NCBI GenBank assembly: GCA_016212275.1
Contig: JACRGR010000026.1
Coordinates: forward strand, 1 to 64,000
Direction: 5' to 3'
Source: Nitrospinota bacterium
GTDB taxonomy: Bacteria; Nitrospinota_A; UBA7883; JACRGQ01
Length of the DNA stretch: 64,000 bases
Part shown: piece by piece, positions 3,819 to 63,702 of the stretch
Numbering within the stretch: the stretch's first letter is position 1
Layout: every line of letters begins with the position of its first letter
Translations under genes and position numbers: made by a program
Notes under the pieces: generated by a model
Seen by the model: only the letters and a program-made list of their open reading frames with translations
What the model was told of the DNA's origin: nothing
The model's database searches: none

Positions 3819-4616
3819 ATGCTTGAAGACCAGCTACCTTCAAGGGACAATTCCCCCATGGGGCAAAGGCTCCGCAAGGGGATATTTATCCTCCCGTCGC
3901 TCATCACTACGTTCAGCTTTTTCAGCGGGTTCTACGCCCTGATTGCCGCTTTTAACGGCCTGTACTATAACGCGGCGGTCGCGATCATCCTGGCGGCGCT
4001 GTTCGACTTCCTTGATGGCAAGGTGGCCCGGCTGACCAATACAACCTCCCAATTCGGGATGGAATACGATTCGCTTTCCGACCTGATGTCCTTCGGCATC
4101 GCGCCGGGCTTTTTGGTCTATTCCTGGGCGCTTCAGCCGTTCGGACGCATCGGCTGGATGGCGGCATTCCTGTACGTCATCTGCGGCGCTTTGCGGCTGG
4201 CGCGGTTCAATACGCTGGCGGCCACCGGCAAGGCGTCGGGCCGGTTCGTGGGGCTTCCCATCCCGGCGGCGGCGATGGTGATAGCCTCAATGATCATCAT
4301 GACCAAAGACCTGCTCCTGTTGGAGAAGCTTAACCCATTCATCCTCGTCGGCACGGTGTATGTGCTGGCGTTTTTGATGGTGAGCAACGTGCGCTATTTC
4401 AGCGCCAAGCAACTCGATTTCCACCGGCGGAGGCCGTTCGGCATCCTGGTTTTCATGGTGCTTTCGGTTTACATACTGGCCGTTATACCGGAACTGATGC
4501 TCTTTATCGTGGCCATCGGGTACGCCGCTTCCGGCCCGGTGGAATGGTTCTGGGGCCTTTTACACGGCAAAAAGGAACCCGCCGACCCCTCCGAAGCCCT
4601 GCACCCGCATCAATAA
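3819..4616 (+). CDS. pssA: CDP-diacylglycerol--serine O-phosphatidyltransferase
   Basis: An integral membrane enzyme that makes phosphatidylserine from CDP-diacylglycerol and serine, the first step to phosphatidylethanolamine. The CDP-alcohol phosphatidyltransferase motif is complete: DG-x2-AR-x8-G-x3-D-x3-D, seen as DGKVARL through EYDSLSD (around residues 65-90). Several hydrophobic helices follow and the length (265 aa) is typical of type II PssA. The ATG at 3819 sits six bases after a TATCAT -10 box and lacks a ribosome binding site. An internal ATG at 3858 is the alternative start, but it also lacks a convincing one. A rho-independent terminator follows the gene. Confidence 0.9.
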
Positions 4617-16203: not shown

Positions 16204-19148
16204 ATGGTTTTGACCTGTCCGAAGTGTTTGAGCCGGTACGAGGTGGATGCTTCGTCCATCCCGGAAGAGGGAAGTTACGCCCGTTGCGCCACCTGTGAAA
16301 ATATATTTTTTGTCAAAAAGAAGAAAAAATCGGCGAAAAAACCGGCCGTTCAGGAACTGGCCCCTGAGCCGGTAGTGGCAAAAGAACCGGCTGTTTCACC
16401 CCCCCCCCCCCTGAATCGCCGCCCCAAGCTGAAACTTTGCCCCCGGAGGAGCCAACCGTCCCTCCCGCGGCACTGCCGGAAACGCCTCCCCCCGCAATGG
16501 CGGAACAGGCGGCAATGCCTGCACGCCCGGCCACTTCCGCATCCTCCGCCCAATCAGATATTGATGCGTTGTTTGGAGGCGCGGCCAAGGTGGAAACGCC
16601 ACCCCCCGCACCTGCTCCCCAGCCGGTTCAGGTTGCCACAGAGGACAAGGGCGCATCGCCCGCCGATATTGACGCGATCTTCGCCGCCGCATCCGCGCCA
16701 AAGGCGGAACCGGCCAAACCGGAAGTCGCTTCGGCCTCAGACATAGACGCGATCTTCGCAAGCGCGCAGGTCGCCAAACAGGAGGCACCCCCTCCCCCGA
16801 TAGCTAAAGAAGCTGTCAAAGAAAAGGAATCGCTCAAGCCGGGCGACATAGAGGCCATTTTGGCAAATGTAAGCCCCGTGGTGGATAACAACGCGAAATC
16901 CGCCGCCCAAAACGATATTGACGCGCTTTTCAATAATGCGCCCAAAGCGGAGCCAAAACCGCAACCTGCACCCGTTAGCTCCACGGCAAGCGCAAGCGAT
17001 ATTGATGCCATCTTCGCCAGCGTCGCGGCACAAAAACCGGAACCGATCAAAACAGATGCACCCAAAAACGAGGCCGCCAGCGCGGCGGATATTGACGCGA
17101 TCTTCGCCGCCGCATCCGCTCCAAAGGCCGAACCGTCGAAGCCGGAGGTCGCCTCCGCAGATGACATTGACGCCATCTTCGCCGCCGCATCCGCGCCAAA
17201 GGCCGAACCGTCGAAGCCGGAGGTCGCCTCGGCCTCCGACATAGATGCGATCTTCGCCGCCGCATCCGCTCCAAAGGCCGAACCGGCAAAACCGGAGGTC
17301 GCATCGGCCTCCGACATAGATGCGATCTTCGCCGCCGCATCCGCTCCAAAGGCCGAACCGGCAAAACCGGACATCGCCTCGGCCTCCGACATAGATGCGA
17401 TCTTCGCCGCCGCATCCGCTCCAAAGGCCGAACCGGCAAAACCGGACATCGCCTCGGCCTCCGACATAGACGCGATCTTCGCCGCCGCATCCGCGCCAAA
17501 GGCCGAACCGGCCAAACCGGAGGTCGCATCGGCCTCCGACATAGACGCGATCTTCGCCGCCGCATCCGCGCCAAAGGCCGAACCGGCAAAAACCGAGGCC
17601 CCCGCAATGGCCTCGCAGGATGATATTGACTCGCTCTTTGGAAACGCGAAAGAAACCGCGGCCCCTGATGATATTGACGCGATCATGGCCGCGGCGCAAG
17701 CCCCCGCTCCGGCGGCCAGCGCCCTTCCGGCGGAACCGGCGGGTGGCACACAGGCGCTCTCCAACGACGATATAGACGCGATATTGGCGGGCGTTCCGGC
17801 CAGCAAGGAAGCCGAAATTCCCACGCCCACCACTGCGTCCGATGAAATTGTTTCGCAAGCGGATATGGACAGCCTTCTTTCCCAGGCCACACAACCGGCA
17901 AAAGAAGAAAAAGCCGCCGCCACCGGTGAGCCATACATTTCGCAAGACGACCTCGACTCGTTGTTAGGCGAAACAAAGGCCGCAATCGAGAAAAAGGAAC
18001 CGGCCATAAGCCAAGAAGATTTGGATACCCTTTTCACCGAAGCGCCCGCCGGGGCCGCGGCCCCCGCATCCGGCGCACAGAGCAACGTGATGGACCTGAT
18101 GGCGCAGGACGACGCCGAACTTGAATCGCTGTTCGCCAGCGAAGCCAGCGCTACCACCGGCGCCCCGAAAGCCGCGGCCCCCGCCGCCGCCACCCAAGCG
18201 CCCAAGGCCGAAGCGGAAGCCGGCATTGACACCTCGATGTTCGAGGGACTGGATAAAGAGGAAGCGGCCCCGATACCTGGCGAAGGCGTAAGCACAAGGA
18301 CTCAAGCGGGTGATACCGCACCCATACTCGAAGAAACGGGGGAGAAGAAGCCCGGAAAACTCGTCATTCTCGCGGCGTTCATTAAATCCAAACTGCCCAA
18401 GCGGAAGAAAAAAGAGTCGGCCCCCGCCGCCGAAGCCCCCGCGGAACCCGTGGCGGAAGCGCCCGGAGAAGAAACGGGACAAAAACCAAAAAAGAAATGG
18501 AAAAAAGCGCTGGCGCCCCTTGCGGCCATGTTGTTGGTAGCCGTCGGCGCGGGGATATATTTCTATCCCAAACTTGCGCCAAAGGCGGTCACAGTGGCAA
18601 AACATGAACCGGCCCCCGCCGCGAAGCCGGAAGAAACAAAACCGGTTGAAACGCCCAAAGCCGGAGAGCCAAAACCGGCGGAACAGGCAAAGATCGAGCC
18701 GACCCCGGTAGCGCCGGTGGAAACGGCAAAAGCCGCCGAACCGGCACCAGTACTTCCCGCACCTTTGCCGCCCGCGCCCGTTGCCCCGGTGGTCACGGCG
18801 CAGGTTGCGCCACCAACCCCGGCGGAGCCCGCCCTGCCTGAACAGAGAACTCTCAACCTCGGCATTATCGTGCCGGTGGACTTCAACACGCAGGTGGTGA
18901 AGGTGCTCTCCGCCGACGTGGAACTTCTGTTCACCGACGAAAAACAGAAGGCGATGGCGGAGAAAAAGCAGTTTCTGTACGAGGTGGCGATAGAGCAGGA
19001 GATAGAATTGTTCTTCAAGGACAAGTTCTACGAAGACACCCACTATGTGCAGGACAAGCTGATGGCCTACCTGTTCGACCGGTTCAAAAAGCGGGGCGAC
19101 ATGGAAAAGCTGTCCGGCGTGAACCTTCAGAACTTCTCCCTGAAGTAA
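16204..19148 (+). CDS. Zinc-ribbon membrane protein with ~20 FliM-like 'DIDAIF' motifs, split by a 13-C homopolymer frameshift
   Basis: The first 65 codons (ATG 16204) encode an MJ0042-type zinc ribbon (CPKC ... CATC), as found at the N-terminus of many deltaproteobacterial membrane proteins. At a run of 13 C (16399-16411) the frame is lost; one more C, or two fewer, restores a 900-residue frame that runs to 19148. That part carries about 19 clear copies of a [SAD]-D-I-D-A-[IL]-[FL] motif in Ala/Pro-rich linkers. Eight of these are near-identical 25-residue repeats, and later forms read SQDDIDSLF, SQADMDSLL and SQDDLDSLL. They resemble the FliM N-terminal CheY-binding peptide (LSQ-x-EIDALL). 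A basic stretch and one membrane helix (KALAPLAAMLLVAVGAGIYF) precede a Pro-rich linker and a C-terminal domain of about 100 residues, which may be FliL-like. Function unknown. Confidence 0.75.
17085..17612 (+). repeat. Seven tandem 75-bp coding repeats
   Basis: Units begin at 17088, 17163, 17238, 17313, 17388, 17463 and 17538 (first Asp codon of each DIDAIF), exactly 75 bases apart and differing by only a few bases. An eighth isolated unit begins at 16667. Each encodes DIDAIFAAASAPKAEP plus KPEVASAS-like linker. The near-identity points to recent expansion or gene conversion. Confidence 0.95.
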
Positions 19149-19223: not shown

Positions 19224-19309
19224 GGAGGGGTGGCCGAGCGGTTTAAGGCGGCGGTCTTGAAAACCGTTGAACGAAAGTTCCGGGGGTTCGAATCCCTCCC
19301 CCTCCGCCA
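19224..19309 (+). tRNA. tRNA-Ser(TGA), CCA encoded
   Basis: Acceptor stem GGAGGGG with CCCTCC (7 bp), D-arm with GGTTTAAGGC, anticodon loop CTTGAAA giving TGA, long variable arm typical of type II tRNA, T-loop TTCGAATCC, and an encoded CCA at 19307-19309. Immediately downstream lies a repeat element that copies the 3' end of this gene. Confidence 0.96.
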
Positions 19310-19493
19310 TAACAAAAATCGCTCCCCGCGGGGGAGTATTTTTTATTACGGAGAGGGATTCGAAAGCGAGCTTCCGTACGCGAGCGATAAGCAAGCGTTA
19401 TCCGGCATGGATGCCGGATAAGGAAGCGAATCGGGCCTGATGGAGCCCGCGCGTGATGCGCGGGCGAGAGTAGGCGATCCCTCCCCCTCGGCC
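19310..19493 (+). repeat. tRNA-tail element A (structured, after tRNA-Ser)
   Basis: Non-coding element. In order: a terminator-like hairpin (19322-19336); an inverted copy of the tRNA-Ser T-arm (GGAGAGGGATTCGAA, 19350-19364); an internal fold with outer stem CTTCC/GGAAG (19371-19375, 19422-19426), a perfect 11-bp hairpin (19398-19421), a 21-nt conserved linker (19426-19446) and a 7-bp hairpin with GTGAT loop (19446-19464); then a direct copy of the tRNA 3' end (GATCCCTCCCCCTCGG, 19476-19491). The distance from tRNA 3' end to its copy is ~185 bases. It matches element C (63439-63625) in order, spacing and linker sequence, while the stems differ by compensatory changes. Confidence 0.7.
19322..19342 (+). 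terminator. tRNA-Ser terminator
   Basis: CTCCCC/GGGGAG stem (19322-19327, 19331-19336) followed by TATTTTTTA, right after the tRNA-Ser 3' end. Confidence 0.75.
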
Positions 19494-19670: not shown

Positions 19671-19877
19671 ATTGAAACTATAGCATCGATTGGCAAGAAC
19701 ATAAAAAAAGCACGAAATAAGCTTGGCTTGACCCAAGACGACATAGTGAGAAAGTCCGGCGTAAAGCACACAACCCCAACCAAAATTGAAAGTGATGTTG
19801 TTATCAAGCCAAGCGTTGAGACGGTCGCCAAAATTGCTAAAGCATTGGGTGCTCCAATGGAAGATTTGGTAGGATAA
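19671..19877 (+). pseudogene. Small XRE-family helix-turn-helix gene, probably frameshifted at its start
   Basis: The sequence SIGKNIKKARNKLGLTQDDI, followed by KIESDVVIKPSVETVAKIAKALG, is a complete XRE/Cro-type HTH of about 60 residues ending MEDLVG. No ATG/GTG/TTG opens this frame: it is open only from 19662, with ATT at 19671. The natural-looking ATG at 19658 is one base out of frame. Removing a single C (ATGATATCAACG|C|ATTGAAACT) would give a normal N-terminus. Either an indel has broken the gene, there is an assembly error, or ATT is used. A TTP in place of the usual TTL in the recognition region also hints at decay. Confidence 0.65.
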
Positions 19878-19915: not shown

Positions 19916-20401
19916 ATGACAGCAAAAAGTAAATTGCTACGGATGGACAACGTCGGAATCGTTGTCAACGACCTCAAGGCCACCATTGCGTTCTTTGTCG
20001 AGCTTGGCCTGGAGCTGGAGGGTGAGATGACAGTTGAGGGGCAATGGGTAGACCGCATCGTCGGACTCAACGGTGTCCAAAACGACATCGCCATGATGCG
20101 GACCCCGGACGGTCACAGCAAACTTGAGATCATGAAGTTCCACACGCCAACTGTGATCGAGGGCGAGCCAAAAAACGCGCCTGCGAACACGCTAGGGATA
20201 CGTCGGATCATGTTCGCCGTCACTGATATCAATGACACCATTGCCCGCCTCAAAAAACACGGAGCAGAACTTATCGGAGAGGTGGTGAACTATGAGGATA
20301 TATATTTACTCTGCTATCTTCGTGGCCCTGAAGGAATCATGATTGCCCTCGCCGAACAGCTTGGGGAAAAATCCGTAAAGGATGTTTTAAGAAAATCTTG
20401 A
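19916..20401 (+). CDS. VOC (glyoxalase/bleomycin-resistance) family protein
   Basis: A 161-residue protein of the vicinal oxygen chelate fold with the paired beta-alpha-beta-beta-beta modules: MDNVGIVVNDLKATIAFFVE at the N-terminus and RRIMFAVTDINDTIARLKKHGAELIGEV in the second half. Metal-ligand positions are only partly obvious (E in KLEIMKF, E in GPEGIMIALAEQ), so glyoxalase I activity cannot be claimed. Many such proteins are dioxygenases or resistance proteins. GGGGGA upstream supports the ATG. Its base composition is lower in GC than neighbouring genes, so it may have been acquired together with the adjacent HTH gene. Confidence 0.88.
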   Translation: MTAKSKLLRMDNVGIVVNDLKATIAFFVELGLELEGEMTVEGQWVDRIVGLNGVQNDIAMMRTPDGHSKLEIMKFHTPTVIEGEPKNAPANTLGIRRIMFAVTDINDTIARLKKHGAELIGEVVNYEDIYLLCYLRGPEGIMIALAEQLGEKSVKDVLRKS

Positions 20402-20541: not shown

Positions 20542-20738
20542 CCGCCATAACAAAAAAGCTCCCCTGCGGGGAGCGATTTTTGTTATGGCGGAGGGAGAGG
20601 GATTCGAAAGGTGACGTTCGGCCCGAACGAGGAGGGAGGGCAATTACACATGATGTGCAATTAGAACGCCACCGGGGGGCAAGCGGTTGCATGGACGTAA
20701 CCGCGCGTGTGGCCGAATCATTTCCCTCCCCCTCCGCC
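20542..20738 (+). repeat. tRNA-tail element B (orphan, divergent copy)
   Basis: The same architecture as elements A and C but without a tRNA gene in front. It begins with a tRNA-like end CCGCCA (20542-20547). Next is a long hairpin that joins it to its complement (CCGCCATAACAAAAA ... TTTTTGTTATGGCGG, to 20591), then an inverted tRNA-Ser T-arm (GAGAGGGATTCGAAAGG), three internal hairpins (CGTTCG-GCC-CGAACG; an imperfect AATT-CACA/TGTG-AATT; GCGGTT/AACCGC), and last a direct copy CCCTCCCCCTCCGCC ending at 20738. The overall length (~195 bases) matches A and C. The inner part differs except for the first ~25 bases, which align with C. Confidence 0.6.
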
Positions 20739-63438: not shown

Positions 63439-63625
63439 TGGTGCGCCCGGCGGGACTCGCCTCCTCTCGCGGCAACCTCACGTTGCCGCTCCATCAGGCG
63501 CGATTCGCCTTCTAGTCCGCCTTCCCTGGCGGACTGCGCTCCGCACTGCTCGCGCCGAAGGCTCACTTTCGAGTCCCGCAAACAAACCAATAAGGAGCAG
63601 GTTCAAAAGTGAACCGGCTCCTTAT
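63439..63625 (-). repeat. tRNA-tail element C (structured, after tRNA-Arg)
   Basis: Read on the minus strand from tRNA-Arg: a terminator-like hairpin starting at the tRNA CCA (AATAAGGAGC ... GCTCCTTATT); an inverted T-arm copy (GCGGGACTCGAA); an outer stem GCCTTC/GAAGGC (63507-63512, 63557-63562); an eight-bp hairpin (63514-63535); a 21-nt linker (63488-63508) identical to that of element A at 20 positions; an eight-bp hairpin with GTGAG loop (63469-63489); GCGAGAGGAGGCGA; then a 21-base perfect copy of the tRNA-Arg 3' end (63439-63459 equals 63626-63646). The distance between the two copies is 187 bases. Confidence 0.75.
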
Positions 63626-63702
63626 TGGTGCGCCCGGCGGGACTCGAACCCACGACCTACGGATTAGAAATCCGGTGCTCTATCCGACTGAGCTACGGGC
63701 GC
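63626..63702 (-). tRNA. tRNA-Arg(TCT), CCA encoded
   Basis: Acceptor GCGCCCG/CGGGCGC, D-arm GCTCAGTCGGATAGAGC, anticodon loop TTTCTAA giving TCT, T-loop TTCGAGT, CCA encoded (63626-63628 on the plus strand). Confidence 0.97.

Follow-up and report, generated by a model that had tools for sequence, protein, structure and literature searches.

The tyrT locus of Escherichia coli holds a unit of 178 bp repeated 3.14 times (rtT), a repeat that was reportedly described as a 178-bp element by Egan and Landy in 1978 (rtT/rttR). We find that the layout there is a tRNA-Tyr tail, a spacer (X), the inverted tail GGGGAAGGAT, a GA-rich hairpin core and ATCCTTCCCCCACCACCA, with several units of 178 bp in succession, and that the locus matches the Rfam family RtT (RF00391). 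This family contains a tandem GA motif (PMC7657543). The wider class of tRNA-linked repeats (TLRs), first seen in 1978 and treated by Rudd in 1999, comprises 22 copies at ten loci in strain K-12, each with a 3' end in which 18-19 bp are identical to the upstream tRNA or 5S rRNA (PMC8144298). TLRs in tRNA operons are without known function, and for the tyrT repeats a phenotype has been retracted and no function is agreed, whereas the TLRs behind 5S rRNA are transcribed, processed and bound by Hfq and CsrA (PMC8144298).

Our searches place RtT in 4695 of 5426 complete E. coli genomes. Behind tRNA-Pro, in both E. coli and Salmonella, its ends read GAGGAT...ATCCTC and a truncated or second unit is present, while behind tRNA-Arg in Salmonella it has a decayed form. 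At E. coli proK (L280, L281 and L282) the flanks are shared between strains but the number of RtT units is not, the difference being exactly one unit of 168 bp, and these strains thus provide a natural assay for the gain and loss of units.

The locus studied here lies in a window of 64,000 nt on one contig (C6) of a Nitrospinota genome assembly of 2.19 Mb in 81 contigs. The first-pass annotation described, at 20542-20738, a long hairpin, an inverted T-arm, internal hairpins and a direct tRNA-Ser tail with no tRNA attached, and we find every one of these features in place (Table 1); ARAGORN predicts no tRNA there, the tRNA-Ser gene lying 1.29 kb away. The left part of this orphan, taken as its reverse complement, is 91% identical over 65 nt to the tail and terminator of tRNA-Ser(tga) (E 1.6e-18), a likeness too close to be due to chance. 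Its direct tail shares 15 bases with the tRNA-Ser tail and has an ATT insertion. The core, of ~105 nt, had been said to differ from that of element C. It is indeed divergent, the nearest other core being 66% identical, but the covariance model R1 still places it in the same family. The orphan is thus of the same class as elements A and C while standing apart from a tRNA, as had been proposed. A search of the whole window with Rfam returned tRNAs only, and weak low-threshold matches were rejected as chance. Elsewhere in the window, a long open frame of FimV-like appearance at 16437-19148 (+) contains about ten near-identical repeats of 23 residues (ASDIDAIFAAASAPKAEPAKPEV), which give rise to long antisense open frames.

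Table 1. Positions within the window of the orphan, of elements A and C, and of the genes beside them.
Feature	Position	Strand	Basis
tRNA-Ser(tga), parent of element A and, by its ends, of the orphan	19224..19309	+	ARAGORN, Rfam
Element A, gap X: terminator-like hairpin and outer part of inverted tail	19310..19354	+	sequence
Element A: inverted tail GGGATTCGAA, folded core, start of direct tail	19355..19482	+	model R1, 119.4 bits, E 2e-26
Decayed direct tRNA-Ser tail behind A, CGATCCCTCCCCCTCGGCC	19475..19493	+	sequence
XRE-type HTH open frame without clear ATG, between A and orphan	19671..19877	+	Pfam HTH_3, E 1.7e-11
VOC/glyoxalase-like gene, between A and orphan	19916..20401	+	Pfam Glyoxalase_4, E 2.6e-11
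Orphan, palindrome X, CCGCCATAACAAAAA..TTTTTGTTATGGCGG	20542..20591	+	sequence; first bases CCGCCA (end of tRNA-Ser tail), last TGGCGG
Orphan, inverted tRNA-Ser tail TGGCGGAGGGAGAGGGATTCGAA	20586..20608	+	sequence
Orphan, folded core with P1 closing stem	20599..20721	+	covariance model R1, 89.6 bits, E 6e-19 (one of the nine sequences used in building R1)
Orphan, direct tRNA-Ser tail CGAATCATTTCCCTCCCCCTCCGCC (CGAATC-ATT-TCCCTCCCCCTCCGCC)	20714..20738	+	sequence
Direct tRNA-Arg tail behind C, CGAGTCCCGCCGGGCGCACCA, 21/21 nt identical	63439..63459	-	sequence
Element C, behind tRNA-Arg(tct)	63452..63577	-	model R1, 114.6 bits
tRNA-Arg(tct), parent of element C	63626..63702	-	ARAGORN

We inspected all 32 tRNA matches of the source genome and found the same layout behind nine of them: the tRNA, a gap X, an inverted copy of its own tail, the core and a direct copy of its own tail. 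Model R1 was built from nine source-genome copies, with the tmRNA, C60 and Arg(tcg) copies left out of the building, so that the scores of source-genome copies are partly high by construction. It recognizes 12 copies in this genome, of which two are orphans (the window orphan and C60:1298-1424) and the others lie behind Ser(tga), Ser(gct), Arg(tct), Arg(tcg), two Met, Val(tac), Glu and Gln(ctg) tRNAs and tmRNA. The search for the core in other genomes that had been suggested for this locus reveals copies throughout the GTDB family of the window, in all 11 of its genomes among the 117 searched (7 genera, 2-22 copies each). The carriers with named records are groundwater metagenome-assembled genomes (MAGs) of Nitrospinales/Nitrospinota and MAGs of a deep-sea collection that bear the label Nitrospirae. 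By contrast, R1 has matches in none of 106 genomes outside the family, 12 of them of the same class. A pattern search of viral contigs for the core gave no match, and pattern matches in contigs of Verrucomicrobia, Pseudohalocynthiibacter, Latescibacterota, Methylopila and Thermoleophilia were rejected for want of support from the model.

The ~90 copies in all occupy some 20 tRNA types plus tmRNA. They follow a tRNA or tmRNA gene of their own strand, mostly at a distance of 20-75 nt, apart from second tandem units, copies at contig ends and a handful of orphans. Several contigs end inside or beside an element (G006:C120, C215, C106 and C75; G008:C37; G003:C20). Since many contigs stop at elements, the assemblies are evidently broken by these repeats and the copy numbers should be taken as minimum values. 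Several tRNAs are also followed by another hairpin repeat, GCGGACAGCCGC..GCGGGTGTTCCG..TTTT..ACACTCGCATTT..AAATGCGAGTGTAA, which in some cases lies nested within the elements (G000:C78:~4440-4540 at Arg(tcg), G000:C60:~1200-1290, G000:C35 at tRNA-Glu, L038 at tRNA-Leu, and G010:C147).

The tails that flank the core follow the host gene. The portion copied corresponds to tRNA nucleotides ~57-76, and at many loci the match extends over a full tail of 20 nt. When the copies at 64 loci are scored against 41 distinct tails, with ties allowed, the own tail is top-scoring in 53 loci for the direct copy and in 37 for the inverted copy, a match that is partly given by the conserved T-loop and in which ties are frequent. 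The mean alignment scores are 15.0 for the own tRNA versus 6.4 for other tRNAs (direct copy) and 9.2 versus 5.7 (inverted copy). The gap X is alike on the left and right sides in only 22 of the 64 loci, although in just 1% of controls. At many of these 22 loci the right-hand X runs on into P1 and a truncated core, and so forms part of a decayed second unit; for this reason we reject the idea that X is a true target duplication at every locus. Intact tandem units are spaced ~165-210 nt apart, and there are arrays in which the last unit is truncated.

The fold is closed by a stem (P1) in which the inverted tail pairs with the direct tail. Stem P2 leads to a three-way junction formed with P2a and a variable hairpin, P2b, and P3 is a long hairpin. 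P2a has the form GCGC-GA-CC-GATGA-GG-GA-GCGC, and its internal loop is GA/GA in 88 of the 93 elements. Across 90 distinct copies, both sides have changed in 39 of 43 base pairs, and the covariation score of 0.57 compares with 0.17 for shuffled and at most 0.10 for slid alignments. The fold is therefore conserved and covarying, and the character of the exchanges bears on the level at which it is maintained. G.U pairs are few: in the inner stems of the elements we count 49 G.U, 21 A.C and 2528 Watson-Crick pairs, and in the tRNA stems of the same genomes 70 G.U, 2 A.C and 1366 Watson-Crick pairs, giving G.U to A.C ratios of 2.3 and 35, respectively, in counts that come from related, non-independent sequences and for which we claim no p-value. 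A constraint acting on RNA only should strongly favor G.U over A.C, and a DNA palindrome should favor neither; the data therefore lean towards DNA, with the element stems appearing nearer to a DNA palindrome than to tRNA stems. Some constraint at the RNA level is possible, as G.U is still 2.3-fold above A.C.

These features closely parallel those of the enterobacterial repeats. As in the TLRs of E. coli and Salmonella, an inverted tail, a hairpin core and a direct tail are followed by a truncated last unit, and as in E. coli there are one to several units per locus and many loci per genome. Position directly downstream of the RNA gene holds for A, for C and for nearly all of the ~90 copies, the stretch of 18-19 bp identical to the 3' end of that gene is present (21/21 in C), and the tandem units end in a partial one. 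RtT, in particular, shares a P1 made of inverted tail GGGGAAGGAT and direct tail ATCCTTCCCC, the tandem GA motif, the tandem units, and an occurrence at tRNA-Pro and tRNA-Arg as well, with ends that follow that tRNA. The two groups differ in that the E. coli TLRs have another core and are also found behind 5S rRNA, which is not seen for the Nitrospinota elements, whereas the latter also stand behind tmRNA and reach up to 22 copies in genomes of 2-3 Mb. R1 gives only 6-7 bits on E. coli tyrT and does not match the proK and arg loci either, and the RtT model finds no match, all scores being below its gathering threshold, in the window and the relatives. Since neither model recognizes the other family, the Nitrospinota elements are, as judged from sequence, the same kind of element as the E. 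coli TLRs in a separate sequence family. Other known systems are more distant. REP/REPIN elements with their Y1 transposase (RAYT) are likewise short palindromic repeats with paired changes, but the Nitrospinota elements have a far longer, multi-stem fold and are bound to tRNA tails, and one carrier genome (G006) is without a Y1 transposase. Integron attC cassettes and tRNA-integrated islands resemble the elements in their direct repeats of tRNA 3' ends, folded palindromes and arrays; the elements differ in having no apparent dedicated integrase in five carriers and an inverted copy that matches each target.

The relationships between cores differ within and between genera. Cores of one genus usually have their closest match at the corresponding tRNA (19 cases, identities of 69-95%), the pattern that vertical descent would give. 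When the closest match comes from another genus, it belongs to a different tRNA in 24 cases and never to the tRNA of the same name; 2 cases pair one orphan with another. In G003 and G006 the nearest core is often in the same genome at another tRNA, with up to 88% identity. P1 nevertheless fits each host, pairing AAGACTTGAA with CAAGTCTT at Arg(tct), GGGGATCGAA with CGATCCCC at Ala(ggc) and AGGATTCGAA with CGAATCCT at Arg(gcg). Closely similar cores at different tRNAs, each with a P1 fitted to its host, together indicate that cores have moved and that their ends have been re-matched. A sister species (G009) has Leu(caa) and Val(tac) loci without an element, a state compatible with either gain or loss, and has remnants at Val(cac) and Met; at Val(cac) the tail and the inverted tail have changed together between G005 and G009. 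At one further locus (G007:C104:11568-11885, minus strand) the body of a tRNA-Ala(ggc) passes at TTCG straight into the inverted tail and has its own tail beyond the core, the tRNA seemingly being broken by the element.

The other orphans clarify how an element may come to lack its tRNA. On G010:C164 (L119) a tRNA-Ala and its element are followed by a segment of ~1.9-2 kb, then by GGGGTTCGATCCCCCTCTGCTCCACCA and a 98% identical element that is preceded by a piece of tRNA-Ala running from the T-arm to the CCA. The segment carries an open frame for an AAA-ATPase of 538 aa; this protein has an OLD-like look and is the single cargo, possibly of a small defence island. The orphans on G008:C66 and G010:C256 follow the 3' halves of a tRNA-Glu and a tRNA-Gly, respectively, each beginning near the anticodon. 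Such 3' pieces are as expected if an integrating island took the 5' half, and these loci look like islands inserted in or beside a tRNA that carried the element's side away. Upstream of the window orphan the remainder consists only of CCGCCA and a terminator hairpin. Because only six bases of tail are left, we infer the parting from tRNA-Ser from the ends of the orphan together with the better-preserved orphans of relatives. The most fitting reading is that the ~1 kb XRE-VOC segment has cut the orphan off from a tRNA-Ser(tga) array of which it was a unit. Thus, of the three origins considered in the first-pass annotation, separation from a tRNA fits best, while a second class sharing only the ends does not agree with a core that belongs to the family. 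At the orthologs of the downstream gene in eight relatives, the compared flank contains no tRNA, element, VOC or YdeI gene; gene order around the orphan is not conserved in the relatives, and a clean empty site is accordingly not available. A plain remnant of a duplicated tRNA-Ser gene, to which the matching tRNA-Ser ends might point, is refuted in practice, as the orphan has no tRNA body and its core matches a family found behind a dozen other tRNAs and tmRNA.

A search of 385 genomes with the pattern GGATTCGAA, gap, CGAATCC (one tail type), together with sequence searches, uncovered, in other bacteria, two further families that have the layout but other cores. One (f78) has copies behind Val, Ser, Met and Tyr tRNAs and a tmRNA-like tail (in G094, G364 and G235), and the other (f74) has four copies in G090, at two Ser tRNAs, an Asp tRNA and a contig end. 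In both families X is carried by the element and is similar at the different tRNAs. Wherever the gene does not encode CCA, the tail copies are without it as well, so the tail would be copied from gene DNA or from an unprocessed transcript. With R1, one copy of f74 reaches 26 bits (E 9e-5), hinting at a distant kinship of f74 with the Nitrospinota family.

The reading that we favor, with a probability of roughly 0.6, is that the orphan is a tRNA-linked repeat, a non-coding hairpin that colonizes tRNA and tmRNA 3' ends and moves or is copied as DNA, with its ends re-matched to the new host. The unit spans ~180 nt, made up of the tRNA tail, the gap or terminator X, the inverted tail and a core of ~110 nt. 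As a palindromic hairpin of DNA it would move or be copied, with the target tRNA gene as the source of its tail copies; template switching or hairpin-templated repair would then bring the inverted tail into agreement with the direct tail. Recombination between tails would raise or lower the copy number, and the duplicated tails may double as landing sites for islands. What is new here is the mobility and, above all, the re-matching of the ends, the mechanism being our interpretation. Among the reverse transcriptases and Y1 transposases of the 11 family genomes and the tyrosine recombinases of five carriers we find no convincing candidate for a mobilizing enzyme. The Y1_Tnp domain is present in 10 of the 11 and missing from G006, which has 12 elements. 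A short gene with a Y1_Tnp domain (~148 aa) precedes tRNA-Arg(tcg) by ~700 nt in three congeneric species (G008:C53:18288-18545, G005:C43:42430-42669 and G010:C159:2427-2681).

We consider two alternatives to this proposal of a mobile DNA hairpin possible but doubtful. The element could be chiefly an RNA, co-transcribed with the tRNA and folded from inverted to distal tail, its spread being incidental; it would then act either as a stable sRNA (compare rtT and the 5S-linked RrB) or in tRNA 3' maturation through competition between tails. The strict same-strand placement behind tRNAs, the conserved fold with its tandem GA motif, the terminator-like gaps and the processed, protein-bound transcripts of the 5S-linked E. 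coli TLRs all suit such a role. They have to be weighed against a G.U to A.C ratio unlike that of the tRNAs of the same genomes, the absence of the element from many tRNAs and from sister species, the position of many copies beyond a strong terminator-like hairpin and, in E. coli, the TLRs of tRNA operons that lack a known function (PMC8144298). Alternatively, passive template switching during replication, with no dedicated mobility, could build each new copy: the strand would fold back at the end of X, copy the tail backwards, switch at the T-loop TTCGAA into another core and return at CGAATCC. A single event of this type would yield the inverted tail, the direct tail, the repeated X and the ends in the T-loop, quasi-palindrome correction would yield paired changes with few G.U steps, and the path agrees with our seeing no element-specific enzyme. 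It does, however, demand three switches each time, repeatedly, in a single orientation and always at stable-RNA 3' ends, and in f74 and f78 X is borne by the element and accompanies the core, which is what a defined mobile unit would show.

Recombination of an integron-like or phage-like cassette, with an attC- or attP-like folded site and a tyrosine recombinase acting at the tRNA T-loop, would account for direct tail repeats like those at attL and attR, for the folded palindromic site, for the arrays and for the genes that separate element copies both in the window and on G010:C164. We judge it improbable: five carriers with 3-20 elements, the source genome included (G000, G002, G006, G007 and G008), have just two tyrosine recombinase genes (PF00589) each, the number expected for XerC and XerD, which we take these putatively to be; moreover, X, where repeated on both sides, differs between loci, and the left tail always fits its own tRNA. 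An integron-like array with the genes as cargo is weakened by this census of recombinases and by the locus-specific X. More improbable still is a retroelement that uses the tRNA 3' end as primer or template for reverse transcription. The inverted tail resembles a retroviral primer binding site and the last copies are 3'-truncated, but a reverse transcriptase (PF00078) is present in only one of the 11 genomes, and the template could not be CCA-finished tRNA, since copies are without CCA where the gene does not encode it.

More broadly, and at somewhat less than even odds, we suggest that the E. coli TLRs may be one branch of a bacteria-wide group of hairpins, mobile at the DNA level at stable-RNA 3' ends, that re-template both ends for each new host tRNA, with the Nitrospinota family, f74 and f78 indicating that the class is old or has evolved repeatedly. 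The ~90 Nitrospinota copies, the sister species with and without them, the covarying fold and the rule that the ends follow the host supply what was lacking in E. coli, and the nature of tRNA-linked repeats, DNA mobility as against RNA function, thereby becomes testable. For annotators, the implication is that repeats of tRNA tails near islands need not be attachment sites.
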